A DNA stretch of 32,083 nucleotides from Planctomyces sp. (GTDB taxonomy: Bacteria; Planctomycetota; Planctomycetia; Planctomycetales; Planctomycetaceae): positions 1-32,083 of the forward strand of contig SXKJ01000340.1 in the NCBI GenBank assembly GCA_005778115.1, read 5' to 3'. Below, in pieces: positions 1 to 32,083 of the stretch. Every line of letters starts with the position of its first letter. Positions within the stretch are counted from its first letter, which is position 1. Made by a program: the position numbers and the translations under genes. Under the pieces are notes generated by a model that saw nothing but the letters and a program-made list of their open reading frames with translations, was not told where the DNA came from and did not search any database.

Positions 1-297
1 CAGATTGCCGGCCTCGACAAATTAGGGGACGACTTCTTCACCGCCGTCGATCAACTGAAGCCCGGCACGACCGCCGCGATTCCGAACTATGACCGTTCCG
101 CCTTCATCGTCGTGCATGTCATCGACCGCGAAGAAATCGCGGCCGAGGAAGACGCTCCGCAACGAGCTGACTTCCTCAAGACCTGGCCGTTCAGCCCCCC
201 CGCGAATGAACTGGCCAACGCCAGTTCATTTCCGCTGCGTCGCGAGTGGATGGAATCCATCGAACGCAAATACAACGTGAAGTGGCCGGTGAAGTAG
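1..297 (+). CDS. C-terminal fragment of an uncharacterised protein (possibly a SurA/parvulin-type isomerase)
   Basis: The frame is open from the first base to a TAG at 295-297, giving the last 98 residues of a protein that starts outside the window. The segment LKPGTTAAIPNYDRSAFIVV resembles the end of parvulin-type PPIase domains, where a 'lkpGev..p' strand is followed by a strand of the form 'yyvvrv'. The tail is hydrophilic and ends EWMESIERKYNVKWPVK. The similarity is weak and comes from memory of the fold pattern only, so the function is tentative. The stop codon lies inside the left arm of the inverted repeat at 294-351, so the repeat may have set the present 3' end of the gene. Confidence 0.55.
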   Translation, partial: QIAGLDKLGDDFFTAVDQLKPGTTAAIPNYDRSAFIVVHVIDREEIAAEEDAPQRADFLKTWPFSPPANELANASSFPLRREWMESIERKYNVKWPVK

Positions 298-351
298 GAC
301 GGGCACTCCTGCCCGTCGATGCGAGGAGACGGGCAGGAGTGCCCGTCCTAC
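294..351. repeat. Inverted repeat, family A (perfect 24-bp arms)
   Basis: The left arm at 294-317 starts gtaggacgggcactcctg and the right arm at 328-351 is its exact reverse complement, with a 10-nt loop. A close relative lies at 24328-24384. The left arm contains the stop codon of the upstream gene. The right arm ends 5 nt before the rbsK start, so it overlaps the rbsK leader. There is no T-tract. Confidence 0.9.
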
Positions 352-356
352 AAATC

Positions 357-1298
357 ATGTCGATCATCGTCCTCGGCTCGATCAACACGGATTTGGTGAT
401 CCGTTCGCAGTCGTTGCCGCAACCGGGCGAAACAGTCCTGGGTGGCGAGTTCTATCGCGCGGCTGGCGGTAAAGGAGCCAATCAAGCGGTCGCGGCAGCG
501 CGATCGGCGCGCGATCCGGTGATCTTCCTCGCGGCCGTCGGGGACGACTCATTTGGCCAAGAATCGCTAAGCGCCCTGCGGTCGGAGAATCTCGATACGC
601 GGTTTCTGAAAGTGGTCCCCGGTCAGCCGTCAGGAGTCGCACTGATTCTGGTTGCTGCCAGCGGCCAGAACCTGATTAGCGTGGCCAGTGGCGCGAATCT
701 ACATCTGCGGCCGGAGGACATTCACGCGGTTCCAAAAGAGGTGTGGCAAAATGCTCGCGTGTTCGTCGCGTGTTTGGAGTCGCCGCTGGAAACGGTCATC
801 GCCGGACTGCGACATGCCAAACAATCCGGGCTGACAACGATCGTCAACCCAGCTCCCGCCGATCGCGAAATCATGTTCGCGGTTGGACTGCGGCTCATCG
901 ACGTCTTCACGCCCAACGAAACCGAAGCCGCGTTGCTGACCGGTCGCGAAGTCCGATCTTCCGCGGACGCCGAGGCTGCCGGAAGGCAGCTTCAAACCGC
1001 CGGTTGCTCGCGAGTCATCATCACGCGCGGTGAGCATGGTTGCTGCGTCCTTGACGACGATGTCGTCGAACACCTCGACGCAATTGCGGTCGAAGCGATC
1101 GACGCTGTCGCGGCGGGAGACGTCTTCAACGGCGCACTCGCCACAGCCCTTTCCGAAGGCCGATCGCTCATCGAGGCCACTCGCTGGGCCAGCAGGGCCG
1201 CAGCGATCTCGGTCACGCGACGCGGAGCTCAGCCGTCGATTCCAACTCGCGACGAGATTGAATTAAATGCGAGTCGCGGGAGCGATTCGCCTACGTAG
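357..1298 (+). CDS. rbsK: Ribokinase (PfkB family)
   Basis: This predicted 313-residue cytosolic kinase phosphorylates ribose at O5 with ATP. It opens with the first PfkB strand, VLGSINTDLV (5-14). It carries the sugar-binding GGKGANQAVAAA stretch (38-48), the NPAPAD segment (165-170) and PNETEAALLTG (187-197). The anion-hole and catalytic-base motif is AAGDVFNGA (252-260), with Asp255 as the expected base; the closely similar DTTAAGDTFNGA is typical of true ribokinases. I start at the ATG at 357 because the family begins here. The open frame extends back to about 246, but those codons are a read-through of the family A repeat. The last few codons and the TAG lie in another inverted repeat (1272-1317). 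No ribose transporter or other rbs gene is adjacent. A related sugar kinase of the same family is possible. Confidence 0.88.
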   Translation: MSIIVLGSINTDLVIRSQSLPQPGETVLGGEFYRAAGGKGANQAVAAARSARDPVIFLAAVGDDSFGQESLSALRSENLDTRFLKVVPGQPSGVALILVAASGQNLISVASGANLHLRPEDIHAVPKEVWQNARVFVACLESPLETVIAGLRHAKQSGLTTIVNPAPADREIMFAVGLRLIDVFTPNETEAALLTGREVRSSADAEAAGRQLQTAGCSRVIITRGEHGCCVLDDDVVEHLDAIAVEAIDAVAAGDVFNGALATALSEGRSLIEATRWASRAAAISVTRRGAQPSIPTRDEIELNASRGSDSPT

Positions 1299-1317
1299 CT
1301 CAGTCGCTCCCGCGACT
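1272..1317. repeat. Inverted repeat at the end of rbsK
   Basis: The arms agtcgcgggagcga (1272-1285) and tcgctcccgcgact (1304-1317) are perfect 14-bp reverse complements with an 18-nt loop. The left arm encodes the C-terminal residues of ribokinase, and the loop holds its TAG (1296-1298). It could act as a weak terminator, but no T-run follows. Confidence 0.8.
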
Positions 1318-1350
1318 GAGATTCCAGGTGTTCGACGATTGAAATCACAA

Positions 1351-1807
1351 ATGCGACTCTGGTCCCTGCACCCGAAGTATTTGGACTCACGCGGCTTGGT
1401 GGCACTCTGGCGCGAGGCGCTGTTGGCTCAAGCGGTCTTAGTGGGCGAAACACGCGGCTACCAGCACCATCCACAACTGACACGATCTCGGAAATCGGCC
1501 ACTCCTCAGTCAGCGCTGGCAAGCCATTCAGGCGGAGTCGTTACGACGCGGCTATCGCTTCGACAATTCCAAAATCGGCCCCGTCAAGAACCCGGAAGTG
1601 ATCCCCGTCACACGCGGCCAAATGGACTACGAATGGGGACAATTCAAAGCCAAATTGCGGCGACGCGATCCCACAGCATGGGAACAGATTCAGTCAGTGA
1701 CTCGACCAGTCCCGCATCCGTTGTTTCGGATCAAACCGGGACCGATCGAAGATTGGGAAGTCGTTTCGATTTTGGGCGGTCCGCGAATAACATCCGCCTC
1801 CGCTTGA
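1351..1807 (+). pseudogene. Pyrimidine dimer DNA glycosylase/endonuclease V family, frameshifted
   Basis: From the ATG at 1351 the frame reads MRLWSLHPKYLDSRGLVALW, followed by WREALLAQAVLVGETRGY and HHPQL. This is the hallmark N-terminus of small bacterial proteins annotated as pyrimidine dimer glycosylase/endonuclease V (Pyr_excise), which nick DNA at UV-induced dimers. The match fades near 1500-1525. The family-like sequence resumes one frame over, with AIQAESLRRGYRFDNSKIG, IPVTRGQMDYEWGQFKAKL and HPLFRIKPGPIEDWE, ending at TGA 1805-1807. Neither frame alone is complete, and the second frame has a stop at 1478-1480. A small deletion around 1515-1530 would explain this. It is either a recent pseudogene or an assembly error. 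The gene ends 22 nt before gltX. Confidence 0.75.
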
Positions 1808-1829
1808 TGACCTTCAGCAAGGACTGACG

Positions 1830-3443
1830 ATGACTGTAAGAACGAGGTTTGCTCCTAGCCCGACGGGCTACATGCACATCGGCGGGATGCGAACCGCTCT
1901 GTTCAATTGGTTGTGGGCACGGCACAACGGCGGCACGTTCATTCTGCGGATCGACGACACGGACCAGCAGCGCAACATGGACGAGGCACTCGGCCCGATC
2001 CTGCAAGCATTCAAGTGGCTCGGTCTGACCTGGGATGAAGGACCTGAGATCGGGGGGCCGTACACTCCGTACTTTCAATCGCAGCGTGGCGAGCTGTATC
2101 GTGCCGCCGCCGACCAATTGCTTCGCGAAGGCAAAGCCTATCGCTGCTTCGAGACGAAGGAGCAAATCGACCAGGACCGCAAGCAGGCCGAAGCCGAGAA
2201 GCGGACCTATCTGAGCGCTCGCCGTTCGCTGCAACTGAGCGAAGCGGAGATCCAAAAATTGCTCGCCGAAGGCCAGCCGCACGTCATTCGGTTCCTGGTG
2301 CCTCGCGACCAGAAGATCGTCATCGACGATCACATTCGTGGCCGAGTCGAATGGGATGCCGGACTGATGGCCGATCCGGTCATCATGCGCGGCGATGGCT
2401 CGCCGCTCTACAACTTCGCGACGGTGATCGACGACGCGCAGATGCAGATCACGCACGTCGTCCGGGCGGAAGAACATCTCTCGAATACGCCGACACAGGT
2501 GTTGCTGCATCAGGCACTCGGCAACACGCTGCCGCAGTTCGCTCACATTCCGTATGTCGCTGCGCCGGGTGGGAAAGAGAAGCTCAGCAAGCGTAAGCTG
2601 GCTCAATACCGCAACAACGCTGCGTTCAAAAAGCTGTGCGACAAAGGGGACGCGGTCTTCGCTCAGATTGGCCTCGCGGGACAAGCGGGGCTCGAGCCGG
2701 TGATGGTCGAGTTCTACGAACGAGTCGGCTTCCTGCCGGCAGGAATTCTGAACGGCTTGTTGCGGCTCGGTTGGTCGCTGGACGACAAAACCGAGATCTT
2801 CTCGCTGGAGGATGCGGTGAAACTCTTCACCCTCGACCGAGTCGTGAAAGCTCCGGCCGGTTTCGATCCCGACAAGATGGTCTCGTTCCAGCAGCACTGG
2901 ATGACGCAGTTGCCGTTGGAGCAGAAGGTCGCGGGTTGCTTGCCGTATCTCGTGAGAGCGGGCCTGATCGTGGGGCAGGTTTCCAATCTGCCCGGCCAAG
3001 ACGGGCACATTGAAAACGTGTCCCACGAGTCGTTGGAATTCGTCGCGCGGTTGATTGCCGCGATGGGCGATCGCATCAGACTCTTCAGCGATATCCTCGA
3101 CGTCGCCTACTTCTTCAAAGACGAGATCACTTACGACGAGAAAGAATTCACCAAACGAGTCGCCAAGGAAGGTGTCCCCGCTCTGCTGGCCGGCTTTCGA
3201 GATTGCATCACAGCGATGCCGGAATGGACGGTCGAGAACTTGGAAGCCACGCTCAAATCGTACTGCGAAAAACAAGGACAACCGGCCGGCACGCTAATTC
3301 ACGCTTTGCGAATCAGCACAACCGGCGTCCCCATTGGCCCCGGTGTCTACGAATGCGTGCTGCTCGTCGGCCGTGACCGCGTGTTGACGCGGATCGATCA
3401 AGCGATTCAGAGAGCGACGGCCCGACAAGACTCAACCCAATGA
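1830..3443 (+). CDS. gltX: Glutamyl-tRNA synthetase (class I)
   Basis: This enzyme charges tRNA-Glu with glutamate in the cytosol. The protein is 537 residues; 470-510 is usual. It has the class I HIGH signature as [20 protein letters not shown] (10-29), the amino-acid-binding RIDDTD (40-45) and the KMSKS loop as KLSKR (251-255). Directly after KLSKR it carries a longer insert, [20 protein letters not shown], instead of the HGA of standard GltX; I recall this variant from planctomycete-type enzymes. Residues about 381-399 ([19 protein letters not shown]) are the in-frame translation of a dispersed inverted repeat inserted in a linker of the anticodon-binding part. Downstream homology resumes at [13 protein letters not shown]. 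The start is ATG 1830 with an AAGGA upstream. The catalytic core looks intact. Confidence 0.95.
2970..3026. repeat. Inverted repeat, family B, embedded in gltX
   Basis: The left arm at 2970-2988 (gtggggcaggtttccaatc) and the right arm at 3008-3026 (cattgaaaacgtgtcccac) pair imperfectly. The left arm matches the arm of the intergenic element at 22130-22181. The element is a multiple of three in effect and keeps the gltX frame open. Confidence 0.82.
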
Positions 3444-3450
3444 GTTCCCA

Positions 3451-3522
3451 TTTTTCGCCCTTCATCTTTCGCCAGTTCCGGCATCATGACGGGGGGAGCT
3501 GGCAAAAATGGAGGGCGAAAAA
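3451..3522. repeat. Inverted repeat, family D, between gltX and the epimerase gene
   Basis: The outer arms tttttcgcccttcat (3451-3465) and atggagggcgaaaaa (3508-3522) pair with one mismatch. The stem continues inward through gccagttcc and ggagctggc. The same design and much of the same sequence recur at 29537-29606. It could also work as a terminator for gltX. Confidence 0.8.
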
Positions 3523-3570
3523 TGAACGACAAATCTTTCAACCCCGTTTGGCTTCGATGATGAGGTTCCC

Positions 3571-4836
3571 ATGAAATTTCAAACTCTCGGACTCAAACCC
3601 AGTTTCGGATTCGGCGACCGCATCGGTCTCGCCACGCCCGGCCACATCGCGGCGATGCGGCGAGTGCCGTGCGGCATCGAAGCGATCTTCCCGCAGCAAT
3701 CCATTCGCGAGATGACGCGCACGCAACGCACGCCGCAGAACGTCATCGACGATGCGGTGAGCGGCATGACTGCGACCGGATGGACGGGGCTTTGCGGCGC
3801 GGATGCGGACCACTTGAAGACTCAACATGACGTTGATCGCACGGCAGCGGTCGGGTTCACGTTCTTCACGATCGACCCGTCAGGAGCCGTTGACCCCAAG
3901 GCCGACAGCTACGACGAATCAACGCTGTGGCAACAAGCGGCAGCCATTCAGTCCGAGGTCGGCTGGGCACCGCAATACGTCGGCCGACAGGTAAAACTCT
4001 CAACTGGCACGGCCATCGACTTCACCGATCGTGCCTGTCTGCAAGCCGCCGTGAAGTACGGCCGAGCGATCAATCAGGCGGTCGCCTTGTCGGATTACAT
4101 TAGCCGCGTGCAGACATCGGCCGGGCGGGAATTCGAGATCGAACTGAGTGTCGATGAAACCGACAACCCGACGACTCTTGCCGAGCACTACATCATTGCG
4201 GATCAATGCCTTTCACGCGGTATGAAGCTGGTCAGTCTCGCGCCGCGATTCGTCGGTGACTTTGAGAAAGGAGTCGATTTCAAAGGCGACCTGGCGTTAC
4301 TAGATCGTTCGCTGCGCGAGCACGCGGCGATTGCGGCGATGCTCGGCCCGTACAAGCTCAGCCTGCATTCAGGGTCGGACAAGCTGTCGATGTACGCCGC
4401 GCTGGCTCGCGCGACGAAAGGCCGCTTCCATGTGAAGACGGCTGGAACGAGTTATCTCGAAGCGCTGCGCGTCGTCGCTCGGCACGACGAGAAGCTATTT
4501 CGCGAGATCATCGGATTCGCTCGCGGGCGTTACGACACCGACAAAGCGACGTATCACGTCTCGGCCACGCTGGCCGGTGTGGCTTCCGGCGAGCAACTCG
4601 CAACCGCTCGCGACCTCGAACGCACTTACTTGGAAATGTGGGCCGACGTGCCGGCCGGCAAAGGCTTCACGGCACCCGGCCGGCAAATTTTGCATTGCAC
4701 GTTCGGGTCCGTATTGACGCATCCCGATTTCGGTCGGGCCGTTCGCAGCGTGCTGGAATCGAATCTTGGCACGTACATCGAAGTTCTCGACGAACACTTC
4801 TCGCGGCACCTGCAAGCTTTGAAAGCCGGCCTGTAA
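3571..4836 (+). CDS. Tagaturonate epimerase family protein (UxaE-like)
   Basis: The 421-residue cytosolic protein starts MKFQTLGLKPSFGFGDRIGL. It contains the segments IFPQQSIREMTRTQRTPQ, GLCGADADHLKTQHDVDR and GFTFFTIDPSGAVD, which I recognise from proteins annotated as the tagaturonate epimerase (UxaE) family. UxaE interconverts the keto-hexuronates tagaturonate and fructuronate, allowing galacturonate carbon to enter the mannonate route. The conserved His and Asp residues in DADHLKT and in the LHSGSDKLSMYAAL segment (near 365-380) are plausible metal or substrate ligands, but I cannot prove that. The start ATG at 3571 has GAGG five bases upstream. No other uronate genes are adjacent, so the true substrate may differ. 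The gene stands alone between two inverted repeats. Confidence 0.72.
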   Translation: MKFQTLGLKPSFGFGDRIGLATPGHIAAMRRVPCGIEAIFPQQSIREMTRTQRTPQNVIDDAVSGMTATGWTGLCGADADHLKTQHDVDRTAAVGFTFFTIDPSGAVDPKADSYDESTLWQQAAAIQSEVGWAPQYVGRQVKLSTGTAIDFTDRACLQAAVKYGRAINQAVALSDYISRVQTSAGREFEIELSVDETDNPTTLAEHYIIADQCLSRGMKLVSLAPRFVGDFEKGVDFKGDLALLDRSLREHAAIAAMLGPYKLSLHSGSDKLSMYAALARATKGRFHVKTAGTSYLEALRVVARHDEKLFREIIGFARGRYDTDKATYHVSATLAGVASGEQLATARDLERTYLEMWADVPAGKGFTAPGRQILHCTFGSVLTHPDFGRAVRSVLESNLGTYIEVLDEHFSRHLQALKAGL

Positions 4837-4860
4837 TCGGCATCATGGGAAAATCAACGA

Positions 4861-4903
4861 GCCCCATTCGTCTGCCATCAGATCATTGGCAAACGAATGG
4901 GGC
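4861..4903. repeat. Inverted repeat between convergent genes
   Basis: The arms 4861-4877 (gccccattcgtctgcca) and 4887-4903 (tggcaaacgaatggggc) are reverse complements with one mismatch and a 9-nt loop. It lies between the convergent ends of the epimerase-family gene and the cytochrome gene, where a bidirectional terminator would be useful. Confidence 0.82.
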
Positions 4904-4940
4904 CAGAGGAATGAGAATTCGCGGTGGCGACGATTGCGAA

Positions 4941-6587: not shown

Positions 6588-6662
6588 GGACTGAACTCCT
6601 GGGTGTCTTGAGTAATGGGAGCGCTCTTACCACCAGCACTCGAATTCGGCGGCAGCATAGCT

Positions 6663-7874: not shown

Positions 7875-7943
7875 GAGTTCGATCCTTTGGACGTTGGGTT
7901 TGGGATAACAGCCAACAGCTTTCAGCCCACAGCCATCGGCAGT

Positions 7944-8393: not shown

Positions 8394-8446
8394 GTAGTAG
8401 GCACACTCCGTGTGCCGTCTGACGGCACACGGAGTGTGCCTACTAC
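8394..8446. repeat. Inverted repeat with perfect 25-bp arms and 3-nt loop
   Basis: The arms 8394-8418 and 8422-8446 are exact reverse complements around the loop ctg. The outer end reads gtagtaggcacactccg. It lies between the divergent acpS and WD40 genes, so it is not placed as a terminator. The hairpin ends 16 nt before the WD40 start. Confidence 0.92.
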
Positions 8447-8462
8447 CAATGGGAGACCGATC

Positions 8463-9458
8463 ATGCCTGCAGATCCCGCTCAAACGTATGTCGTGAAGTC
8501 GTTCGCCAATGAAGCCTCACTGGTCTCGTGCCGGTTTGATCCGAGCGGCCGATTCGTGTTCGTCGGCATGCAGCATTCAAAGGTCGTCCGCTGGGACATC
8601 GCCAGCGGTGCGAAGACCGATCTCGAAGGAGGTCATGAATCGTGGGTGCGAGCAATCGCGTTCGCGAACAAGGGCGAGACAGTCCTGACTGGCGGCCACG
8701 ACGGCCGACTGGTGTGGTGGCCAACGGCTGCCGAGAAGCCGGCTCCGATCCGCACGGTTGAGGCTCACGCCGGATGGATTCGAGCGATCGACGTCAGTCC
8801 GGACGGACAGTTTGTCGCGTCGTGCGGCAACGACCTGAAGGTCAAGTTATGGAAGGTCGAGGACGGCAGCCTGGTCCGCGAGATGACCGGCCACGAGCGG
8901 CACGTTTACAACGTCGCGTTTCATCCCGGAGGTAAGAATCTGGTCTCCGGCGATCTGGTCGCGAACTTCATCGACTGGGAGGTTGAGACCGGCAAGACGC
9001 TGCGATCGTTCAAAGTCCCAACGATTCACAAGTTCGATCCCGGCTTCATGGCCGACTATGGCGGGCCGTACTCGATGCAGTTCGCGAAAGACGGCAAGCA
9101 GTTCGTAGCTGGTGGTATCACGAACGTCTCGAACGCCTTTGCTGGCGTTGGTAATCCGGCCTTCTGCATGGTCGATTGGGAGACTGGAAAAGAGACGATC
9201 GCTCATCTCTGCAAGTCCGGTCTGAATGGCAAAGCCTTCGGCGCGGTTCTGCATCCCGACAACTTTCTGATCGGCGGTGTCGGCGGAGGTGGCGGCGGAC
9301 ACATCTTCTTTTGGAAGCCGGGACAGAAGGACGAATTCCACACATTCAACATCGGCAACGCGATCCGCGACCTGTCGCTGCACCCGGATGGGATCCAACT
9401 CGCGACCGCGCACCACGACAAGCAACTACGGTTGCTAGCGATGAAGCCGAAGGGGTGA
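8463..9458 (+). CDS. WD40 repeat beta-propeller protein
   Basis: The 331-residue protein consists almost entirely of WD40-type blades. Recognisable blade endings include VVRWDIASG, GRLVWWPT, LKVKLWKVEDGSL and FIDWEVETGK. Blade starts include GHESWVRAIAFANKGETVLTGG, AHAGWIRAIDVSPDGQFVAS and GHERHVYNVAFHPGGKNLVS. There is no signal peptide, so it is probably cytosolic and acts as a scaffold. A glycine run (GGVGGGGGGHIFFW) sits in a loop near residue 280. I chose ATG 8463 (MPADPAQTYVV), preceded by GGGAGA. The longer open frame from 8412 only reads through the right arm of the 8394-8446 hairpin. Planctomycetes often have such proteins near PQQ-like and DUF1501 genes. The partner is unknown. Confidence 0.88.
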   Translation: MPADPAQTYVVKSFANEASLVSCRFDPSGRFVFVGMQHSKVVRWDIASGAKTDLEGGHESWVRAIAFANKGETVLTGGHDGRLVWWPTAAEKPAPIRTVEAHAGWIRAIDVSPDGQFVASCGNDLKVKLWKVEDGSLVREMTGHERHVYNVAFHPGGKNLVSGDLVANFIDWEVETGKTLRSFKVPTIHKFDPGFMADYGGPYSMQFAKDGKQFVAGGITNVSNAFAGVGNPAFCMVDWETGKETIAHLCKSGLNGKAFGAVLHPDNFLIGGVGGGGGGHIFFWKPGQKDEFHTFNIGNAIRDLSLHPDGIQLATAHHDKQLRLLAMKPKG

Positions 9459-9477: not shown

Positions 9478-9528
9478 TGTGGCACGACGCTCCGCGTCGT
9501 GATTTGCGACGCGGAGCGTCGCACCACA
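9478..9528. repeat. Inverted repeat between convergent genes
   Basis: The arms 9478-9499 (starting tgtggcacgacgctccg) and 9507-9528 pair over 22 bp with two mismatches and a 7-nt loop. It lies between the 3' ends of the WD40 gene and the aldolase gene. Confidence 0.85.
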
Positions 9529-11652: not shown

Positions 11653-11721
11653 GAGCCGGAGAGTGTCAGCTCCCGGACTTTGAAACTCGGCGAACGTCCG
11701 GGGGCTGACGCCCGCCGGCTC
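11653..11721. repeat. Inverted repeat between the two PQQ-like genes
   Basis: The arms 11653-11678 and 11696-11721 pair over 26 bp with four mismatches. The core gtcagc/gctgac flanked by C- and G-runs resembles family C at 20679-20754. It separates two co-directional paralogues. Confidence 0.78.
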
Positions 11722-11728
11722 GCCTTGG

Positions 11729-18341: not shown

Positions 18342-18559
18342 GAAGTTGCACAGTTCATAGCCCCAAAGGTGGCGAGACTCGATAGCCCAGGGCGCAGCCC
18401 TGGGAAACGAGTCACCTTCGTGCCGATAAGCCCCGAAGGGGCGTGACAAATAGAGTCGCGCCCCCTCAGGGCTTTTCAAATCCGAATTGCTCAAATCCCA
18501 GGGCTGCGCCCTGGGCTATCGAGTTCCGCCCGCTTCGGGGCTGAAAATGGCGCAACTTC
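18342..18559. repeat. 218-bp composite inverted repeat (nested palindromes)
   Basis: The outer ends gaagttgc (18342-18349) and gcaacttc (18552-18559) pair. A central pair of 27-bp arms at 18378-18404 and 18497-18523 is an exact reverse complement. Each of these arms is itself a palindrome (cccaggg cgcag ccctggg). Between them aagccccgaaggggcg (18428-18443) pairs with a related stretch near 18460-18476, with two mismatches. The element fills most of the 429-bp gap between two genes on the minus strand. No coding potential was seen. Confidence 0.85.
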
Positions 18560-19481: not shown

Positions 19482-19533
19482 TTTGCAGTTTTCAATTCTC
19501 ATTTCTTATTTTCCATTTATGCGTTCGATCACC

Positions 19534-19597
19534 GTGCCGCGACCGTCAGGGAGCGGCTCGCTCATCAGTCCGGGCCGCTCCCTGACGGTCGCGGTAC
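19534..19597. repeat. Inverted repeat between divergent genes
   Basis: The arms 19534-19557 (starting gtgccgcgaccgtcaggg) and 19574-19597 pair over 24 bp with one mismatch. It lies between the divergent DUF3472 and ABC genes, so a terminator role is unlikely. Confidence 0.88.
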
Positions 19598-19645
19598 GGC
19601 TGCGTTGCCTACTGCCGATCGCTCACGCCTCTTAGGATAACGCCC

Positions 19646-20678: not shown

Positions 20679-20754
20679 GGCGAGCGGGGCGGCGTCGGCC
20701 CCCCCCCCGGTGGCGTCAACCACAGACCGGGGGGCTGACGCCGCCCCGCTCGCC
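20679..20754. repeat. Inverted repeat, family C
   Basis: The arms 20679-20703 (starting ggcgagcggggcggcgtc) and 20730-20754 pair over 25 bp with one mismatch. The junction of left arm and loop is a run of ten Cs. The same family is cut by the window end at 32054-32083, and a looser relative lies at 11653-11721. It sits just before a PQQ-like gene and creates a false upstream extension of its frame. Confidence 0.88.
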
Positions 20755-22014: not shown

Positions 22015-22129
22015 TCGGACTACCTCGCAGTCACCGCCAGTCCTCGGGCGTCCGTCGCGAAAAAAACCGAACTTCGCTTGGACACAGCAGCCGATACGGA
22101 TAAGGTCATTCTGATTGGTTGCCATTCGT

Positions 22130-22181
22130 GGGGCAGGTTTTCAACCCGCCCGGCCGTGCTGGCAGGTTGAAAACCTGCCCC
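22130..22181. repeat. Inverted repeat, family B, intergenic copy
   Basis: The arms 22130-22146 (ggggcaggttttcaacc) and 22165-22181 are exact 17-bp reverse complements. It lies just before the ribosome site of the DUF1501 gene. The arms match the copies inside gltX (2970-3026) and the kinase gene (29291-29310). Confidence 0.9.
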
Positions 22182-22197
22182 GCGAGGAGGTTGATTC

Positions 22198-23590: not shown

Positions 23591-23643
23591 GTAGTTCGGA
23601 CGCCTACGTCCGAGCCGGGTCCGGACGTAGGCGTCCGGACTAC
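23591..23643. repeat. Inverted repeat between convergent genes, containing a stop codon
   Basis: The arms 23591-23612 (starting gtagttcggacgcctac) and 23622-23643 pair over 22 bp with one mismatch. The right arm ends ggactac, and its cta is the TAG stop of the minus-strand regulator gene. The left arm starts one base after the DUF1501 stop. Confidence 0.9.
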
Positions 23644-24311: not shown

Positions 24312-24327
24312 CAGGAAAGATCGCTTA

Positions 24328-24384
24328 GTAGGACGGGCACTCTTGTCCGTCACAGAAGGGAACGGGCAAGAGTGCCCGTCCTAC
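24328..24384. repeat. Inverted repeat, family A, second copy
   Basis: The arms 24328-24350 (starting gtaggacgggcactcttg) and 24362-24384 pair over 23 bp with one mismatch. It differs from the 294-351 copy by only a few bases in the arms. It lies 17 nt upstream of the DtxR-family start. Confidence 0.9.
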
Positions 24385-24389
24385 GAAGG

Positions 24390-24590: not shown

Positions 24591-24603
24591 GATCTCCCTT
24601 AAA

Positions 24604-24825
24604 TCACTGCAACTCGCCGCCGCAGTGGTCGCAAGTTTTCCCGCCCGCCGCAGTCTGTTGTCCGCAATGGAAGCAGGTCAGCGTCGCCGAGTCCTGGCCC
24701 CACGTCGCCAGCGAGTCCACGCTGACACCGCAGCACCAGCAGACGACCAACAGGATGAGGACACCGATCAACAAGATCGCCAGAAAGCCGCCGAAGTATC
24801 CGCCAAAGACGTAGTAGAACCACAT
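24604..24825 (-). CDS. Small membrane protein with C-terminal zinc ribbon (copy 1)
   Basis: The 73-residue protein has an aromatic N-terminus (MWFYYVFGGYFGG), one strongly hydrophobic helix (about 14-33, FLAILLIGVLILLVVCWCC) and the zinc ribbon CFHCGQQTAAGGKTCDHCGGEL near the C-terminus. The CxxC-x9-CxxC-type spacing suits one zinc ion. The positive-inside rule is hard to apply to so short a protein, but a cytosolic ribbon is likely. GAGG six bases before ATG 24825 supports the start. The gene is 48 bp downstream of hicB and 13 bp upstream of its paralogue, all on the minus strand. I do not recognise a named family. Confidence 0.78.
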   Translation of the reverse strand: MWFYYVFGGYFGGFLAILLIGVLILLVVCWCCGVSVDSLATWGQDSATLTCFHCGQQTAAGGKTCDHCGGELQ

Positions 24826-24873
24826 ACGGCACCTCGCCTAGCGAGATCGTGTTGAGAGGCGACATGGGTCACG

Positions 24874-25089
24874 TTAGACCGCGACACCAACGATCCCAGC
24901 TTCGACACTTGGTTCGGGAACGGGTTCACCATGCTGACGCATACCCTCGATGTGAAATTCGATCGCCTCGCGAATCCGTGTTTCCAATTCTCCACGAGTC
25001 TTTCCGGTCGCGATGCAACCGGGAAGGTCAGGCACATAGGCAGACCAGTTATTGGGACCAGGTTCATAGATCACCGTATATTCGGTCAT
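24874..25089 (-). CDS. hicB: HicB family antitoxin (short form)
   Basis: The 71-residue antitoxin neutralises the HicA mRNA interferase. The N-terminal TVIYEPGPNNWSAYVPDLPG, then CIATGKTRGELETRIREAIE, is the partial RNase H-like fold of HicB. The C-terminal DNA-binding domain (ribbon-helix-helix or HTH) seen in longer HicB proteins is absent, so this pair may not repress its own promoter in the usual way. The start overlaps the end of hicA by four bases (25086-25089, the ATGA type), a sign of translational coupling. The order toxin then antitoxin is normal for hicAB. Confidence 0.9.
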   Translation of the reverse strand: MTEYTVIYEPGPNNWSAYVPDLPGCIATGKTRGELETRIREAIEFHIEGMRQHGEPVPEPSVEAGIVGVAV

Positions 25090-25289
25090 GACTCTTCCTC
25101 ATCGAGCTGCGCTTGCTTGAGAACGCTCTTCAGCGTTTTGGGATGCACGTCGTCATTGGTGTGACCAGAGACTGTCACCGTCCCCGCTTTCGTCGAATGC
25201 ACGAGTTGCCGGTGACTTCCACGAGTCCGCTCCACCTGCCAGCCATCATCGTGCAGCAGTCGTAGCAAGTCACGCACTTTCATGGGCAT
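25086..25289 (-). CDS. hicA: HicA family mRNA interferase toxin
   Basis: The 67-residue protein has a double-stranded-RNA-binding-like fold that degrades mRNA. The diagnostic sequence is VRDLLRLLHDDGWQVERTRG, then SHRQLVHSTKAGTVTVSGH, with the catalytic His26 in GSHRQ. It ends HPKTLKSVLKQAQL, as in the family. Two starts are possible, ATG 25289 (MPMKV) and ATG 25283 (MKVRD). The first lies a few bases after the dapL stop (taaacaatg), which would allow re-initiation from dapL. No separate strong ribosome site is visible. A toxin locked to an essential biosynthetic gene is unusual. Confidence 0.92.
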   Translation of the reverse strand: MPMKVRDLLRLLHDDGWQVERTRGSHRQLVHSTKAGTVTVSGHTNDDVHPKTLKSVLKQAQLDEEES

Positions 25290-25292
25290 TGT

Positions 25293-26525: not shown

Positions 26526-26656
26526 GTTGCTTTTCAATCAGAGCGAGTGAACGGGAGGGTTTACGGAGTCACCGAATCGAAGAACGGAGTGACTCGACGA
26601 TGGGGCTCAGTCTAGGCGTGCTGAGAATGTGAAACAATCAAGCTCGCGAGGCTGCT

Positions 26657-26684
26657 TTGCCGCATTCAATTGGCTGGCTAAAAT
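26657..26684 (+). promoter_or_regulatory. Candidate sigma-70-type promoter for the M50 protease gene
   Basis: TTGCCG at 26657-26662 and TAAAAT at 26679-26684 are 16 bases apart, and the start of the protease gene follows 32 bases later. There are two mismatches in the -35 box and one in the -10. No experimental support is available. Confidence 0.35.
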
Positions 26685-26716
26685 CCATGGAGAAATGACA
26701 CCAGCGGGAGCCTTTG

Positions 26717-27424
26717 ATGTTTGGCCAGCAGTTTCCTCCGACCGAATATGACTTGCGGTTCTCGGTTACGCGCGTCCCCGTGCGAGTCCACCCGGTCTTC
26801 TGGCTGACGGCGGCATGGATCTCGTGGTACGACCAGCAGATGGATTTGACGCTGGTCGGAATGCTGTGTGTGTTCGTGTCGATCTTGCTGCACGAGCTAG
26901 GTCATGCGTGGACGACGCGGCGGCTGGGGAATCGCCACCCCGAAATCGTGCTGGAGTTCTTCGGCGGCTATGCGACGACGGGGCACCATTCTCGCTGGGG
27001 GAACATCGCGGTCGCGGCGGCCGGGCCAGGCGCGGGGCTGTTGTTGTTCAGCGCACTCTGGTTCTGGACGAAGACCGACTCTTTCCGCTCGTTGGAGCTG
27101 TCGCAGTATCCCGCGTTCGCGATCGAGGATCTGATCTTCATGAATTGGTCCTGGAGCCTGATGAATCTCGTCCCCGTCTGGCCGCTCGACGGAGGCCAGA
27201 TCGCGCGGCAGGTGATCGGCTTTTGGCAGCCGTATCGCCAGGACGAGCTCACCACAAAGCTGTCGATCGCCGTCGCGGTCTCGATGGTGGCCTGGTCGCT
27301 GCTGGCACCGCAGGTTGTGACGCTGGTCTTCTGGAACGATCCCAAGTTCTTTGTGTTCTTCTTCGGCTACCTGGCGTTCTTGAACTATCAGTCGCTGCGG
27401 CCGTCCGGCTATCAGCGCTGGTGA
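26717..27424 (+). CDS. Site-2 protease family membrane metalloprotease (M50)
   Basis: The 235-residue polytopic membrane protein carries the zinc motif HELGH (59-63) in LLHELGHAW. The third-ligand motif is LVPVWPLDGGQIARQ, with the ligand Asp158 in LDGG. Four to five hydrophobic segments are visible (for example VGMLCVFVSILL, IAVAAAGPGAGLLLFSALWF and LSIAVAVSMVAWSLLAPQVV). The family cleaves within the membrane to release factors or signal peptides, but small members like this one, without PDZ or CBS domains, have mostly unknown substrates. ATG 26717 follows GGGAG by seven bases. The downstream gene is convergent, with only 2 bp between the two stops. Confidence 0.9.
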   Translation: MFGQQFPPTEYDLRFSVTRVPVRVHPVFWLTAAWISWYDQQMDLTLVGMLCVFVSILLHELGHAWTTRRLGNRHPEIVLEFFGGYATTGHHSRWGNIAVAAAGPGAGLLLFSALWFWTKTDSFRSLELSQYPAFAIEDLIFMNWSWSLMNLVPVWPLDGGQIARQVIGFWQPYRQDELTTKLSIAVAVSMVAWSLLAPQVVTLVFWNDPKFFVFFFGYLAFLNYQSLRPSGYQRW

Positions 27425-27426
27425 AT

Positions 27427-28086
27427 TCAGGCGCGGGGCACGATGTAGTTCAACACCAGGACGTAATGGCACGCGCCGCCGAGCATCACGCACAAATGCC
27501 AGATGGCGTGATGAAACCGCCGCTCGTCGTTGACCAGGAACCAAGTGCCCGACGAATACGCTGTCGCACAAATCACGATCCAAGCGACCCCTTCGCCACC
27601 GACGCAGCGGTAGTAATGCGGAGCCGCCAGAATCGGAACCCAGCCCACCAGCAAATAGAACGAGGTGGAGACGTTGTGCAGCTTGGTGAAGAACAGTTTC
27701 AGCACGATCCCCACGCCCGCCAGCAGCCACATGACCGCCAGCAGCACGCCCCACCAGCCTTCTCGGAGAAACGCGACTCCGAACGGCGTGTAACTGCCGG
27801 CCGCCAGCAGAAAGATGCAGACCTGATCGAAGGTCCGAAAGCGATGCCGCCAGATTCCGCGATGCACGCTGTGCGAGAGGGTCGAAGCGGCATACAGCAG
27901 CGACAGCGTCACCGCGTAAACCGCGCACCCCACCGTCAGCCATTGGTTGTGTTTGCTGAGCGTGGACTGCACCAGCCACCAGCCCGCCGGCAGGCTCAGG
28001 AAAAAGCCAATACCGTGAGTCCATTGATTCGCCACCTCCTCGGTGACGAAGCGTGATGTGGATCTCATTTCCAGCGAACGACTCAT
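27427..28086 (-). CDS. Hemolysin III/PAQR family membrane protein
   Basis: The 219-residue protein has seven hydrophobic segments. It begins TEEVANQWTHGIGFFLSLPA, the usual N-terminus of the hemolysin III (YqfA/TrhA) group. The zinc-site residues of the PAQR fold are visible: Ser68 and His72 in STLSHSVH, Asp87 in TFDQ, and the C-terminal pair in FHHAIWH. Family members are linked to membrane lipid homeostasis; true haemolysis is not implied. ATG 28086 has GGGAG upstream and matches the family length. A longer open frame to 28212 looks non-coding. Confidence 0.92.
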   Translation of the reverse strand: MSRSLEMRSTSRFVTEEVANQWTHGIGFFLSLPAGWWLVQSTLSKHNQWLTVGCAVYAVTLSLLYAASTLSHSVHRGIWRHRFRTFDQVCIFLLAAGSYTPFGVAFLREGWWGVLLAVMWLLAGVGIVLKLFFTKLHNVSTSFYLLVGWVPILAAPHYYRCVGGEGVAWIVICATAYSSGTWFLVNDERRFHHAIWHLCVMLGGACHYVLVLNYIVPRA

Positions 28087-28214
28087 CGCAGACTCCCGTC
28101 GAAGTAATCGCGGTCGCGACCGACCGCGAACGTCCGGCGACGAAATACCAGAATCCGCCAAATGGGCATACAGCGGTTCTGGGCTCGGCGGCCAAGGGAG
28201 CGAACGACGCACTT

Positions 28215-28300
28215 TGTAACCCGACGCGTCAGCGAGGACGAATTCGTCAACGTCGTCACAATTTCGAGAACACCCGCCCTCGCTTACGCTTCTGGTTACA
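28215..28300. repeat. Inverted repeat in the gap before the kinase gene (first of three)
   Basis: The arms 28215-28237 (starting tgtaacccgacgcgtcagcg) and 28278-28300 pair over 23 bp with three mismatches and a 40-nt loop. It is followed directly by the nested pair at 28307-28438. Confidence 0.8.
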
Positions 28301-28306
28301 AAAGGT

Positions 28307-28438
28307 GGCTCTCCGCCATTCGTGTTGAAGACGAATTCGTGAGCCGCACGGCGCTAGCCGCGGGTCGAGGAAAAATAACCCGCGGCTAGCGCCTTGCGGC
28401 TCACATGGCACCGAAATCAACACGAATGGCGGAGAGCC
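28307..28438. repeat. Outer inverted repeat with another element in its loop
   Basis: The arms 28307-28328 (starting ggctctccgccattcgtg) and 28417-28438 are exact reverse complements of 22 bp. The 88-nt loop contains the unrelated hairpin at 28339-28404. Confidence 0.88.
28339..28404. repeat. Inner inverted repeat (27-bp arms)
   Basis: The arms 28339-28365 (starting gtgagccgcacggcgctag) and 28378-28404 pair over 27 bp with one mismatch and a 12-nt A-rich loop. It is nested in the element at 28307-28438, which suggests insertion of one repeat into another. I saw no gene between 28087 and 28470 (384 bp). Confidence 0.88.
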
Positions 28439-28470
28439 CCAAAAGTGCGCCATGCTCCCGGACAACTCAC

Positions 28471-29514
28471 ATGCTCGAACTCGGTCCAGACAACCTGATT
28501 GAATACCTCTGCCAGACGGGCCGGCTGTCCTCGGCCGATGCCGCGAAGTCGCATGCGGAGACGCTGTCCGGCGGAGTCTCCAACGTCGTGATGCGCGTCT
28601 CGGTGCCGAGTGGCCAGGACTTCGTCGTCAAACAATCGCGGGCACAACTCCGCACGCAGGCCGCCTGGTTCAGCCAGCCCGAACGCATCTGGCGCGAACG
28701 GGACGTGCTCGATGTCCTGTCGCGAGTCACCCCTCCCAGGGTTGTGCCGAAGCGGCTGTTCGAGGACCGCGACAATTATCTGTTCGCGATGGAAGCGATC
28801 CCGAGCGAGCACCTCGTTTGGAAGTCCTCCCTGCTGAACGGTGAGGTTGATGAGTCGATCGGCCGCCGACTCGGCGAGATCCTGGCCGGGATTCACTCGC
28901 GCACGACGAATGACGCCGAACTGCGAGAGCGGCTTGGCGACCGCACGATCTTTGACGAACTGCGGCTTGACCCGTTCTATCGCTATATGGCACAGCGGCA
29001 GGCCGAACTGCGTCCGGCCCTGGAGCGTCTGATCGACGAGACAATGGCGACGTCGACCTGCCTGGTGCTCGGCGACTTTAGCCCCAAGAACATCTTGCTT
29101 GTGCCCAGCGAATTGGGCAGCGATGGTCAGCGACCGCGACTCGTGCTGGTCGATTTCGAGACCGGACACTTTGGCGATCCGGCGTTCGATCTCGGCTTCT
29201 TCCTCAGCCATCTGTTGCTGAAGACGATCAAGCACGCGATCCGAGCGGACAGCTTCTTCGACATGATTCGCGCGTTCTGGTCGGCTTATCGTGGGGCAGG
29301 TTTTCAGTCTGGGGATGAGCGAAACACCGTCACGCACTTAGCCGCCTGCATGAGAGCACGCATCGAGGGCAAGAGCACAGTGGATTATTTGACCTCGGAA
29401 GCTCAGTCTTTCGTGCGAGACATCACACGCGATTGGCTGCTGTCACCACCAAATCGAGTCGATGCCGCATTCACCGATTTGCAAAGACGGCTCAAAGCGA
29501 TCTGCTCGTGTTGA
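28471..29514 (+). CDS. APH/MtnK-like small-molecule kinase
   Basis: The 347-residue cytosolic kinase has the aminoglycoside-phosphotransferase fold. The glycine loop region TLSGGVSNVVMRVSV (31-45), the ATP lysine Lys54 in FVVKQSR, the catalytic Asp202 and Asn207 in LGDFSPKNILL and the metal Asp228 in VLVDFETGHFGDPAFDLGFF are all present. The overall length and 'DFE.GHFGDPAFDLG' resemble methylthioribose kinase, but no methionine-salvage gene is adjacent, so the substrate is open. Antibiotic resistance should not be inferred. Residues about 274-281 (RGAGFQSG) look like a decayed in-frame family B repeat in a C-terminal linker. ATG 28471 (MLELGPDN) is chosen; upstream in-frame codons run into the repeats. 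Confidence 0.82.
   Translation: MLELGPDNLIEYLCQTGRLSSADAAKSHAETLSGGVSNVVMRVSVPSGQDFVVKQSRAQLRTQAAWFSQPERIWRERDVLDVLSRVTPPRVVPKRLFEDRDNYLFAMEAIPSEHLVWKSSLLNGEVDESIGRRLGEILAGIHSRTTNDAELRERLGDRTIFDELRLDPFYRYMAQRQAELRPALERLIDETMATSTCLVLGDFSPKNILLVPSELGSDGQRPRLVLVDFETGHFGDPAFDLGFFLSHLLLKTIKHAIRADSFFDMIRAFWSAYRGAGFQSGDERNTVTHLAACMRARIEGKSTVDYLTSEAQSFVRDITRDWLLSPPNRVDAAFTDLQRRLKAICSC
29291..29337. repeat. Remnant of family B repeat inside the kinase gene
   Basis: The stretch gtggggcaggttttcag at 29291-29307 equals the left arm of the 22130 element for 16 of its first bases. The matching right arm is decayed (29320-29337), so only half an element is clear. Confidence 0.6.
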
Positions 29515-29536
29515 GGATATTCCTAATTTCATGGTC

Positions 29537-29606
29537 CCATTTTCCGCCCTTCATTTTTCGCCCGCTCTCCGAAGGGAGCTGGCAAAAAAAGAAGGACGGA
29601 AAATGG
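29537..29606. repeat. Inverted repeat, family D, second copy
   Basis: Left part 29537-29568 (starting ccattttccgcccttcat) and right part 29575-29606 pair with several mismatches. It shares its plan and much sequence with the 3451-3522 copy, including ggagctggcaaaaa. Confidence 0.8.
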
Positions 29607-29627
29607 AGGCACAAGGAGACCGGTCAA

Positions 29628-30587
29628 ATGCGAATCCTTGCGATACTACTGACGATCTCGCTGCTGACGAGCACTGCACTGGCTGATGACCCGTCAAACG
29701 CGCGCCGGCCGAAGAACGATGCCGAACTCCGCTTCTGGCTTGAGAACATGATCTGGCATCACCGTTACTCGAACGACGAAATCACCGCTGCGACGAGTTT
29801 GACGGCTGACGAGATCAAAGCCGCGCGAGCGAAATTCGACATCCGTGACGACAACCGCCCGGTCCGCGCGGCAAACGGGCCGTTGGTCGTGCTGCCGTAT
29901 CCGGGCGGCCGGCATCCGCGCATCGGATTTCTTGACGGAGCCGTGAACCCGCAACGCGAGACGAAGGTCAGTGTCTTCACGCCGTGGTCCGACAAAGATT
30001 ACGTCGTCGTCGATGTGCCAGAGGCGTTGTGGTCGAATCTCGGATTGACGTATCTGGCGCACACGCACATCGACACGGTGTGGTCCAAGCAAGGCATCGC
30101 GATGGAACGGCTCGAATGGAATCGCCGCAAGGACGGTTCGCTCGACATTCAACGCCGACTGCCGAATGGCATCGACTTCGGAGCGCTCATCATTCCGACT
30201 CGCGAAGCCGTTCGCATGGAGTTGTGGTTAAAGAACGGCTCGAAAGAAAAGCTGTCGGACCTGCGCGTGCAGAATTGCGTGATGCTCAAAGGAGCCAGCG
30301 GCTTCGCGGCACAGACGAACGACAACAAGCTGTTTCGCAAACCGTTCGTCGCGGTACATGACGGCTCGAAGAAGCGCTGGATCATCACCGCGTGGGAGCC
30401 CTGTCATCGGCCGTGGGGCAATGCACCGTGTCCCTGTCTGCACTCGGACCCGAAGTTCCCGGACTGTGCTCCCGGCGAAACGCAGACTCTGCGCGGTTGG
30501 TTGTCGTTCTTCGAGGGAACTGAGATTGATGCGGAGTTGCACCGCATCGAATCGCTCGGCTGGCAGACGGAACCGCTGCGGAAATAG
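29628..30587 (+). CDS. Exported protein of unknown function, conserved planctomycete type
   Basis: The 319-residue protein starts with a signal peptide (MRILAILLTISLLTSTALAD) at ATG 29628, with AAGGAG nine bases upstream. A helical segment NDAELRFWLENMIWHHRYSN is followed by a mainly beta domain: VVLPYPGGRHPRIGFLDGAV, ETKVSVFTPWSDKDYVVVDV, WSNLGLTYLAHTHIDTVWSK, EKLSDLRVQNCVMLKGASGF and WIITAWEPCHRPWGNAPCPC. I recall similar sequences in planctomycete genomes but no assigned function. His and Cys clusters (HHRY, HTH, CHRPWGNAPCPCLHSD) could bind metal, and four or five cysteines in an exported protein could form disulfides. It stands alone between a kinase gene and a glycosyltransferase gene. 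Confidence 0.82.
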   Translation: MRILAILLTISLLTSTALADDPSNARRPKNDAELRFWLENMIWHHRYSNDEITAATSLTADEIKAARAKFDIRDDNRPVRAANGPLVVLPYPGGRHPRIGFLDGAVNPQRETKVSVFTPWSDKDYVVVDVPEALWSNLGLTYLAHTHIDTVWSKQGIAMERLEWNRRKDGSLDIQRRLPNGIDFGALIIPTREAVRMELWLKNGSKEKLSDLRVQNCVMLKGASGFAAQTNDNKLFRKPFVAVHDGSKKRWIITAWEPCHRPWGNAPCPCLHSDPKFPDCAPGETQTLRGWLSFFEGTEIDAELHRIESLGWQTEPLRK

Positions 30588-30603
30588 CGAGTCGTCAGCC
30601 AAC

Positions 30604-30691
30604 GTAGCCGTCACCGCTCCGCGTGACGAGCCGAAGTCTCAAACGACGTCGATCGCGCGATCGGCTCGTCACGCGGAGCGGTGACGGCTTC
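30604..30691. repeat. Inverted repeat with 31-bp arms
   Basis: The arms 30604-30634 (starting gtagccgtcaccgctccg) and 30661-30691 pair over 31 bp with one mismatch, the longest arms in the window. The loop side holds a second palindrome, cgatcgcgcgatcg, at 30650-30663, which overlaps the start of the right arm. Confidence 0.92.
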
Positions 30692-30744
30692 GTAAAGCTT
30701 CCGTCTTGGCGATCTGACGCGATGTGTGCCAGACTGCCGACACG

Positions 30745-32043
30745 ATGGGACCTGATGCTTCAAGGATGTATCGCCTGAGAACAGCACTCCGCGGCGCGAT
30801 CGATGCGCGGTTGCAGCCGGAGTATCTGCGATGGATGTCGATCGCCATCCTGATTGTCGGCGGAGTCTTGCTGTGTGCGTCCTTCGCGACTTCGGATCGA
30901 GGTCAAACGGCTTTCGGCCAACCGTTGGGGAATGACTTCGCCGGCTTTTTCGTCGCGGCGCAGATTCTGGATCGAGGCCAAGCGACTCAGTTGTACGACC
31001 GAGCGTTGCACGACCAGCTTTATCATGAGTTGCTGCCGAAGCTCGATCCGCGCGATTCGATTCCCTACGTCCATCCGCCGTTCGTGGCGGGCCTGCTGCG
31101 ACCGCTGACGTGGCTGTCGTATGAAGCGGCGGTCGCCATCTGGTTGATGGTCTCGCTGAGCCTGTTCATGGCCGGCGTCTGGCTGCTGGTTCGCTCATCA
31201 TCGGGACTTCCGCGCGAACAGATGGGGCTCGTGATGCTGCTGGCTCTGTCGTTCGAGCCGTTCCTGATGGAGTGCTGGCTAGGAGGCCAACTCTCGTCCG
31301 TAGGTTTCTTCAGCTACGCGCTGGCGTGGTACTTCTTGTCTCGCAACCGACCGATGGCTTCTGGACTGGCGTTGGGGTTGAGCTTCTACAAACCGACGTT
31401 GTTGTTGCTGATGTTACCGTTGCTCGTCATCGGCCGCCGCTGGCGAGTGTTGTTGGGAATGACGATCACCGGAGTCCTGTTGGCAGGACTCTCGTTGGCG
31501 CTGGTTGGTTGGGAGGTCAGCGTCGGCTATCTCGATGTGTTGCTCTCGTTTCGCAAAAGCACGTCCGGTGGCGGTCTTCAAATCCTGACTTGGAAATACG
31601 TGGACCTCAATAACGCACTGCGTTCGTTGTGGGGCGGACAGTCGCTGGCGAGAACGGCGGTCTTTGGGATCTTGGCTCTTGGTCCGTTCGTATTGCTCGC
31701 CAGAACGTGGTGGCGCTGGGACTCGTTGGAATCGAATCACCGCCAATGGTTGTGGGCGGCAACGCTCGCATGGCTGCCGATCTTAAATCTGTATGTCGGC
31801 ATCTATGACTCGATCTTCGTCGTGCAGAGCTTACTGCTCGCGGCCGACGTGTTGTCGCGAGACCGGCGGCCGGGTACCGAGCTGACAGATTCCGGTCTGG
31901 CCTATTGGACCTTGGCGATCGGCCTCACCGCTTGGTTCAGCCAACCGCTGGCTCGCATCTCCGGCGTGCAGGTCTACACGTTGGCCGTGATCGGCCTGGG
32001 CCTGCTGGAGCTCAGATTCGTTCATCGGCCTCGCAACCCGTAA
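30745..32043 (+). CDS. GT87/DUF2029-type polytopic membrane glycosyltransferase
   Basis: The protein has about 432 residues with some ten hydrophobic helices (for example MSIAILIVGGVLLCASF, VAIWLMVSLSLFMAGVWLLV and TAVFGILALGPFVLLA). The periplasmic loop with GNDFAGFFVAAQILDRGQAT and IPYVHPPFVAGLLRPLTWLS is the hallmark of the GT87/DUF2029 family, which uses polyprenyl-phosphate sugars; the acidic residue in NDF is the likely catalytic site. Relatives include mycobacterial alpha-mannosyltransferases, but the sugar and acceptor here are unknown. The start is uncertain: GTG 30724, ATG 30745 and ATG 30766 are all in frame and none has a convincing ribosome site. TAA is at 32041-32043. Confidence 0.85.
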   Translation: MGPDASRMYRLRTALRGAIDARLQPEYLRWMSIAILIVGGVLLCASFATSDRGQTAFGQPLGNDFAGFFVAAQILDRGQATQLYDRALHDQLYHELLPKLDPRDSIPYVHPPFVAGLLRPLTWLSYEAAVAIWLMVSLSLFMAGVWLLVRSSSGLPREQMGLVMLLALSFEPFLMECWLGGQLSSVGFFSYALAWYFLSRNRPMASGLALGLSFYKPTLLLLMLPLLVIGRRWRVLLGMTITGVLLAGLSLALVGWEVSVGYLDVLLSFRKSTSGGGLQILTWKYVDLNNALRSLWGGQSLARTAVFGILALGPFVLLARTWWRWDSLESNHRQWLWAATLAWLPILNLYVGIYDSIFVVQSLLLAADVLSRDRRPGTELTDSGLAYWTLAIGLTAWFSQPLARISGVQVYTLAVIGLGLLELRFVHRPRNP

Positions 32044-32053
32044 TGCGAATTGT

Positions 32054-32083
32054 CGAGCGGGGCGGCGTCAGCCACCCGGTGCA
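32054..32083. repeat. Family C repeat arm, cut by the window edge
   Basis: The sequence cgagcggggcggcgtcagcc at 32054-32073 continues into acccggtg, like the left arm and loop of the 20679-20754 element. The right arm would lie outside the window. Confidence 0.75.

Follow-up and report, generated by a model that had tools for sequence, protein, structure and literature searches.

Inverted repeats of a Planctomyces genome: many families, probably for the most part REP-type doublets associated with Y1 transposases

Miniature inverted-repeat transposable elements (MITEs) are small, dispersed sequences with terminal inverted repeats. Repetitive extragenic palindromes (REPs) tagged with GTAG, and the REPtrons, were described by Di Nocera et al. 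2013 (PMC3733652), whose account names R. baltica as a carrier of different REP families and also introduces the terminal inverted repeat-associated tyrosine transposases (TIRYTs) and TIRtrons. As far as the respective accounts go, TnpA-Y1 transposases of class 3 occur principally in Planctomycetes together with repeats lacking GT[AG]G (PMC6006769), the Escherichia coli TnpA-REP cuts its own REP as a single strand (PMC8266576), and the pseudomonads and stenotrophomonads of one study have at most four REP-associated tyrosine transposases (RAYTs) per genome, REPs without a RAYT being frequent (PMC3686654). Here we describe the inverted repeats of contig SXKJ01000340.1 from Planctomyces sp. (assembly GCA_005778115.1), analysed over its whole length of 32,083 nucleotides and referred to below as the window. 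The window is the entire contig C318 of a draft genome (G000) of 7.43 Mb in 515 contigs, 94% complete. Its hairpins are very probably, in large part, REP-type doublets resembling REP doublets forming hairpins (REPINs) or bacterial interspersed mosaic elements, non-autonomous elements whose copying would depend on Y1 (HuH) transposases with genes at other places in the genome.

Abundance and anatomy of the inverted repeats

Inverted repeats in the window were sought with a minimum arm length of 14 nt, up to 17% mismatch and a span of up to 150, using 20 dinucleotide shuffles as control. Seventeen repeats were found, whereas the shuffles averaged 0.85 and never exceeded 3; with arms of at least 22 nt the numbers were 13 and 0. 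A separate listing of inverted pairs in the window gave 21. One of the 17, at 8959, lies inside a coding region and looks like a chance occurrence. A preliminary description of the window had listed 18 hairpin places with zero to four mismatches. Sixteen of these coordinates are among the 17 detected repeats (within 17 bp), and the other two were judged by eye, 28307 being sound (1 mismatch in 24, in outer arms around the repeat at 28339) and 11653 weaker (26 of 33 positions matching). The mismatch range fails for 11653 and some others, such as 18359 (5 in 47). Occupation of almost every intergenic gap was an overstatement, as elements were found in 15 of the 22 mappable window gaps of at least 20 bp (11653 uncounted) and in 2 of 11 gaps of a second stretch, L037. 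An Rfam scan of the window gave no match over the gathering score.

A partly biased genome sample of 1,222,106 bases, searched with arms of at least 15 nt, contained 374 inverted repeats, compared with 11 after one shuffle per piece. The abundance of inverted repeats noted in the preliminary description is confirmed. From 40 contigs picked by number (456 kb, 132 repeats) we estimate about 2,150 repeats for the whole genome, and the density is higher in the window (0.5 per kb) than in the sample (0.31 per kb). The sample arms fall into 113 clusters, 43 with at least two members. Repeat midpoints lie outside called open reading frames (ORFs) in 240 of 374 cases, though ORFs cover 87% of bases. 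Family copies are dispersed and mostly extragenic; one 24-mer, at up to 3 mismatches, had 80 + 81 matches in the genome and 2 + 1 when reversed. The two arms stand in inverse orientation at a short distance, as in REP pairs, with a median spacer of 19 nt in the sample, where the search targeted inverted pairs and single REPs fall outside the count.

Many arms form hairpins on their own, and the inverted repeats are therefore read as facing REP pairs (REPINs). A perfect stem of at least 5 was present in both arms of 151 of 374 repeats (mean 37 in shuffled arms), and one of at least 4 in 236 (141 in shuffled arms). This self-folding of arms was not part of the preliminary description.

The repeats were sorted into classes I, II and III. 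In class I, GT[AG]G precedes a short-looped palindrome, the loop often being TCC (read by eye from clusters). This REP foot, characteristic of class I only, lies close to both outer ends in 114 of 374 doublets, and GTAG ranks top of the 256 tetranucleotides near both ends (90/374). The gtag and ctac ends previously described as frequent are therefore a trait of part of the elements and not of all. GT[AG]G tags mark 27 of the 113 clusters, 18 of which have at least two members. When folded as single-stranded DNA, the arms alone of two class I elements, 294 and 23591, gave z-scores of −5.8 and −4.5, and the whole elements −11.1 and −7.4.

Class II elements have no GT[AG]G foot and share a core, CGYNAG. 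The core occurs in both arms of 124 of 374 repeats, compared with 37 for reversed arms and a mean of 33 for shuffled arms; this count is partly post hoc, because the core was initially CGYYAG and was broadened after viewing loci of the L014 type (see below). GT[AG]G accompanies the core in 12 of these 124, leaving 112 with the core only. Altogether 226 of 374 repeats have a foot or a core (chance alone would account for some 37 core matches), in keeping with the earlier comparison to REP or MITE elements of unusual diversity per kilobase. Class III is small, and its arms are built from short direct repeats (CATTTTTCTG and relatives). One such arm folded alone gave 0 kcal/mol, that is, no fold, and one class III word had 13 matches in the genome and none in the reversed control. 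Among the 148 repeats with neither foot nor core are those of class III and of the 18359 type, as well as chance repeats and, probably, copies in decay; the REP-type explanation does not cover this group with confidence. Degenerate, non-REP-like tandem words (GGGGCGAG, GCCGAAAG and ATTGAGAATTG) form the arms of inverted pairs at L008, L031, L038, L071 and L080; the GCCGAAAG word shows little excess, with 28 matches and 21 in the reversed control.

Neighbouring transposases and differences between species

The genome gave 16 Y1_Tnp matches, of IS200 type (about half) and RAYT type. The RAYT genes that the preliminary description had proposed to look for are therefore present, and repeats lie beside them. 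L016 scores as a REP-associated tyrosine transposase (184 bits, cut-off 80) with a perfect GTAG doublet of 36-nt arms 4 bp downstream. A GTAG palindrome lies 45 bp upstream of L012 and a GTAC doublet 185 bp upstream of L001. The TnpA gene L014 (G000:C136) has repeats of the family of window element 19532 on both sides. Two RAYT-like genes, L013 and L015, are seemingly truncated at the 5′ end, where a 28339-family doublet takes the place expected for the gene start.

For each of the L014, L016 and L012 types, 30 loci were fetched, and repeats near the gene were compared with those farther away. Proteins of the L014 type matched in 39 of 294 Planctomycetota genomes. Around their genes there were 31 near inverted repeats, within 350 bp, and 8 far ones (1.48 and 0.15 per kb). 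Sixteen of the 30 loci had a near repeat, and in 10 of these 16 one family stands on both sides (by eye), so that L014 and its relatives are Y1 transposases with their own non-GTAG repeats on both sides. The flanking family changes from genome to genome, with repeats like 28339 in three, and the CGYNAG core is present in 18 of 31 near arms, compared with 3 when reversed. GT[AG]G hairpins numbered 48 near and 20 far (2.71 and 0.30 per kb) at L016-type loci, 18 of 30 having one near, and 51 near and 11 far (2.89 and 0.17 per kb) at L012-type loci, 17 of 30 having one near; L016 and L012 thus resemble cognate RAYTs flanked by the same repeat. In an earlier count, with gene ends set a little differently, 17 of these L016-type loci gave 36 near and 15 far.

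Twelve genomes of the genus were also searched, with 0 to 16 Y1 matches each. Their IS200-type genes (26 loci) had 18 near and 25 far repeats (1.21 and 0.47 per kb), and in one of them, G303, an IS200-type tnpA (L293) has a repeat like 18359 at a distance of 41 bp. Their RAYT-type genes (17 loci) had 8 near and 4 far. Taken together, the neighbours of the L014, L016, L012 and IS200 types indicate that different window families accompany different transposase lineages. The class III word of the CATTTTTCTG type was found at 27 loci in 5 of the 12 congeners (L246-L272), and no transposase was shared among the loci listed; this genome also holds a 62-bp element of class III in at least 8 copies (by eye).

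Gaps were compared between this genome and four congeners, 33 of 37 gaps being mappable. The 84 comparisons gave 19 with a different family, 11 with the same, 14 occupied here only, 13 there only and 27 in neither. Thus among the 44 comparisons of gaps occupied here, the relative held another family in 19, nothing in 14 and the same family in 11. These counts favour frequent arrivals, one of two explanations offered in the preliminary description; the other, constraint on the fold, would seem to play a smaller part, with one element kept in five species. That element, L037:16650, is common to all five, and some elements therefore persist. Counted by element in both directions and with chance repeats included (n=248), 104 were different, 68 absent, 54 the same and 22 decayed or single. 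Orthologous gaps held different families in excess (odds ratio 2.8, p 0.037, comparisons not independent), which was read as a sign of tolerant gaps. At L037:7782-7939 a sequence of about 150 bp has many matches at about 74-82% in all four congeners searched.

Elements of the window

Eight scanned genes of the window are ordinary: pfkB kinase, gltX, UxaE, FabF, ABC transporter, DUF1501, phosphotransferase and GT87. The FabF protein matches those of two Planctomycetaceae metagenome-assembled genomes at 74 and 77% and that of a Planctomicrobium one at 62%, and stretches aligned with the two nearest genomes are 82-91% identical (a 158-bp repeat match left out).

Class I is represented by eight doublets. 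In GTAGGACGGGCACTCCTGCCCGTC at 294..351 (arms matching 24/24) the left GTAG provides the TAG stop of the upstream gene. The corresponding gap is empty in G297 and G299 and holds a different family in G303 and G300; GTAG is present in the empty G297 gap too. The doublet at 1272..1317 has inward GTAG tags and a central CTACGTAG, whose TAG ends the upstream pfkB gene, and numerous copies occur in congeners at up to 98%. GTAGTAGGCACACTCCGTGTGCCGTC at 8394..8446 has arms matching 26/26; in G303 and G300 its gap measures 11 bp and has no element. GTGGCACGACGCTCCGCGTCG lies at 9478..9528, a doublet of GTGGGGCAGGTTTTCAACCTGCC type at 22126..22185, and GTAGTTCGGACGCCTACGTCCG at 23591..23643, where G303 and G297 hold other families, making three families across three species. 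A member of the 294 family at 24324..24388 is common to G297 and absent from G303. The last, GTAGCCGTCACCGCTCCGCGTGACGAGCC, occupies 30602..30693.

Class II or class II-like doublets include the GTACCGCGACCGTCAGGGAGCGG type at 19532..19599, which is missing in G303 and G299, and GGCGAGCGGGGCGGCGTCAGCCCCCCGG at 20679..20754, whose family forms the biggest cluster in the sample (56). The weaker doublet at 11653..11724, whose arms were read by eye, has repeat matches, and GTAACCCGACGCGTCAGCGAGG at 28213..28302 was a singleton in clustering. GTGAGCCGCACGGCGCTAGCCGCGGGT at 28339..28404 resembles doublets beside L014-type tnpA genes in G048, G069 and G181. It is enclosed by longer outer arms (GTGGCTCTCCGCCATTCGTGTTGA) in a 132-bp composite at 28307..28438, of which at least 13 more copies at 91-98% occur in the same genome and further copies in congeners; such similarity is a sign of recent spread. 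Class III doublets were found at 3449..3524 (direct repeats CATTTTTCGCC) and at 29537..29606, the latter decayed in G303 and not present in G299 and G300, and a class III-like doublet (GCCCCATTCGTCTGCCA) at 4861..4903. A 184-bp composite with GCCCAGGGCGCAGCCCTGGG at 18359..18542 resembles the repeat near the IS200-type tnpA of G303.

Alignment with relatives also revealed a decayed GTGG-tagged doublet in frame within gltX (about 2969..3027), absent from the preliminary description. No inverted repeat was detected there in this genome, although the stretch has repeat matches; the doublet is more intact in G303, G297 and G300, and is absent from G299, whose protein is 13 residues shorter at that place. 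Its left arm resembles a variant common in this genome and its right arm another variant. On the minus strand at 24874-25290, two small overlapping ORFs resemble a HicB/HicA pair (by eye).

Two class I elements differ internally between species. The 26-nt spacer of 30602 is reverse-complemented in G297 (L148), and the half-stems of 22126 are GCACGTT/AACGTGC in the G297 orthologue and GCAGGTT/AACCTGC in G000 (with one deviating base) and G303; among the G297 loci fetched, the GCACGTT/AACGTGC variant is the commoner one, 8 to 2. The spacer flip and the stem switch suggest recombination between arms or replacement in place. These changes, the mixed gltX arms and the three families at 23591 would also fit a rewriting of resident doublets, in which a locally dominant stem variant overwrites older copies so that arms stay paired while the family changes. 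We consider this rather doubtful, and a limited literature search, which is no proof of absence, found nothing relevant to turnover in place. If it were true, a selfish repeat could spread without new insertions.

Mechanism, alternatives and relation to known systems

The anatomy of the elements, their copy number, the proximity of transposase genes and repeats in many genomes and the differences between species are direct observations. To account for them, each element would consist of two facing REPs that have a GT[AG]G foot or, in its absence, a CGYNAG core. Each transposase lineage would recognise its own repeat, the neighbouring enzyme moving the neighbouring repeat, presumably through single-stranded DNA as for TnpA-REP and IS200/IS605. 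Old transposases would be lost and outlasted by their elements. Many families would then be present because several transposase lineages live or have lived in this genome and in its genus, and because elements persist once their transposase is gone; and since intergenic gaps tolerate insertion, orthologous gaps would hold different families across species.

Several results weigh against copying by Y1 transposases. Mobility is indicated by presence and absence between species, and no transposition was observed. Only 3 rows of junction alignments passed, and no target motif is claimed because the flanks in congeners are too diverged. The L014 gene is frameshifted near its start. No near repeat was found at 14 of 30 L014-type, 12 of 30 L016-type and 13 of 30 L012-type loci, or at the 10 genus loci matching L010 best (L013 and L015, which carry the doublet at the start position, are among these). 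For many class I families, including that of 294, no transposase partner was identified. A dose-response of doublet density to Y1 gene number was tried and set aside: the correlation in 10 congeners (arms of at least 20) was positive and not significant (Spearman 0.46, p 0.19), and with arms of at least 15 there were counter-examples: G304 still had 0.18 per kb without any Y1 match, and G294 no more than 0.15 per kb despite 15 of them.

Host hairpins, serving as terminators or stabilisers of mRNA 3′ ends with the fold selected and the primary sequence free, are an improbable alternative. In its favour, the five whole elements tested have very stable folds (z −5.9 to −11.8), midpoints are mostly extragenic, and L037:16650 is kept in five species. 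A run of at least 6 T in 9 was found in 15 of 374 repeats (4.0%), which is four times commoner than at random positions (0.9%), so that T-runs are scarce, as described previously, and not absent; nevertheless, the GC stem and following T-run of a terminator are not the rule. As previously noted, divergent gaps are occupied as well as convergent ones (32 elements in 102 gaps and 53 in 126, respectively, in the sample). Near-identical copies within families, the common element-free gaps in congeners and the clustering of repeats at transposase genes also argue against host hairpins. It is very unlikely that the elements are ordinary MITEs derived by deletion from DDE insertion sequences. They are MITE-like in being small and dispersed with terminal inverted repeats, and the class III arm without a fold of its own, the multicopy 62-bp element and the repeated 28307 composite would suit such an origin. 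However, class I arms fold on their own, elements of classes I and II occur close to genes for HuH transposases, and no DDE element with such ends was encountered, though no search was aimed at DDE elements; nor was a target duplication recognised in the few alignable sites, where junctions are too diverged. Local inverted duplication in place, by template switching and without transposition, can hardly be the explanation. Arms are more alike within than between elements in 11 of 12 families listed, a property for which the detection method selects, and the inverted 30602 spacer would also be consistent with it, but this process cannot yield tens of dispersed copies of the same sequence or their gathering at transposases, and an entire element with its spacer recurs at many places, as in the 28307 composite.

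REP-type doublets copied by Y1 transposases remain our preferred explanation. A genome that combines dozens of REP families with several transposase lineages is well suited to studying how enzymes and repeats are matched and how new REP families originate, and the 12 genomes of the genus provide a natural contrast between repeats that have the enzyme and repeats that lack it. Given the turnover from gap to gap, such hairpins should not be taken for conserved regulatory elements before relatives have been checked.

Class I is filed under REP/REPIN. It shares with the GTAG REPs and REPtrons, as described in PMC3733652, the GTAG foot, the short palindrome, the TY-type loop, the facing dimers, tag-derived TAG stops and a RAYT gene flanked by its own repeat. 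That account distinguishes 24 GTAG families over all species, whereas a sixth of this genome has 27 GT[AG]G clusters, 18 of them multi-member; the numbers are not strictly comparable because families are sorted there by other criteria. As in the REPINs described by Bertels and Rainey 2011 (PMC3116915), the inverted doublet behaves as the unit, is extragenic, has a less conserved spacer and is found near RAYTs; the evidence for mobility reported there is excision in sequencing reads, and here presence and absence between species. The L014 lineage with class II, a Y1 transposase between inverted repeats lacking GTAG, resembles TIRYTs and TnpA-Y1 class 3. Class II works like a REP/REPIN and fits the description of TIRYT or class 3, of which it may be a member; the CGYNAG core is described here from the sample arms and the L014-type loci. 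The system is of a known kind; uncommon features are how many families a single genome contains, next to its 16 Y1 matches, and their turnover.

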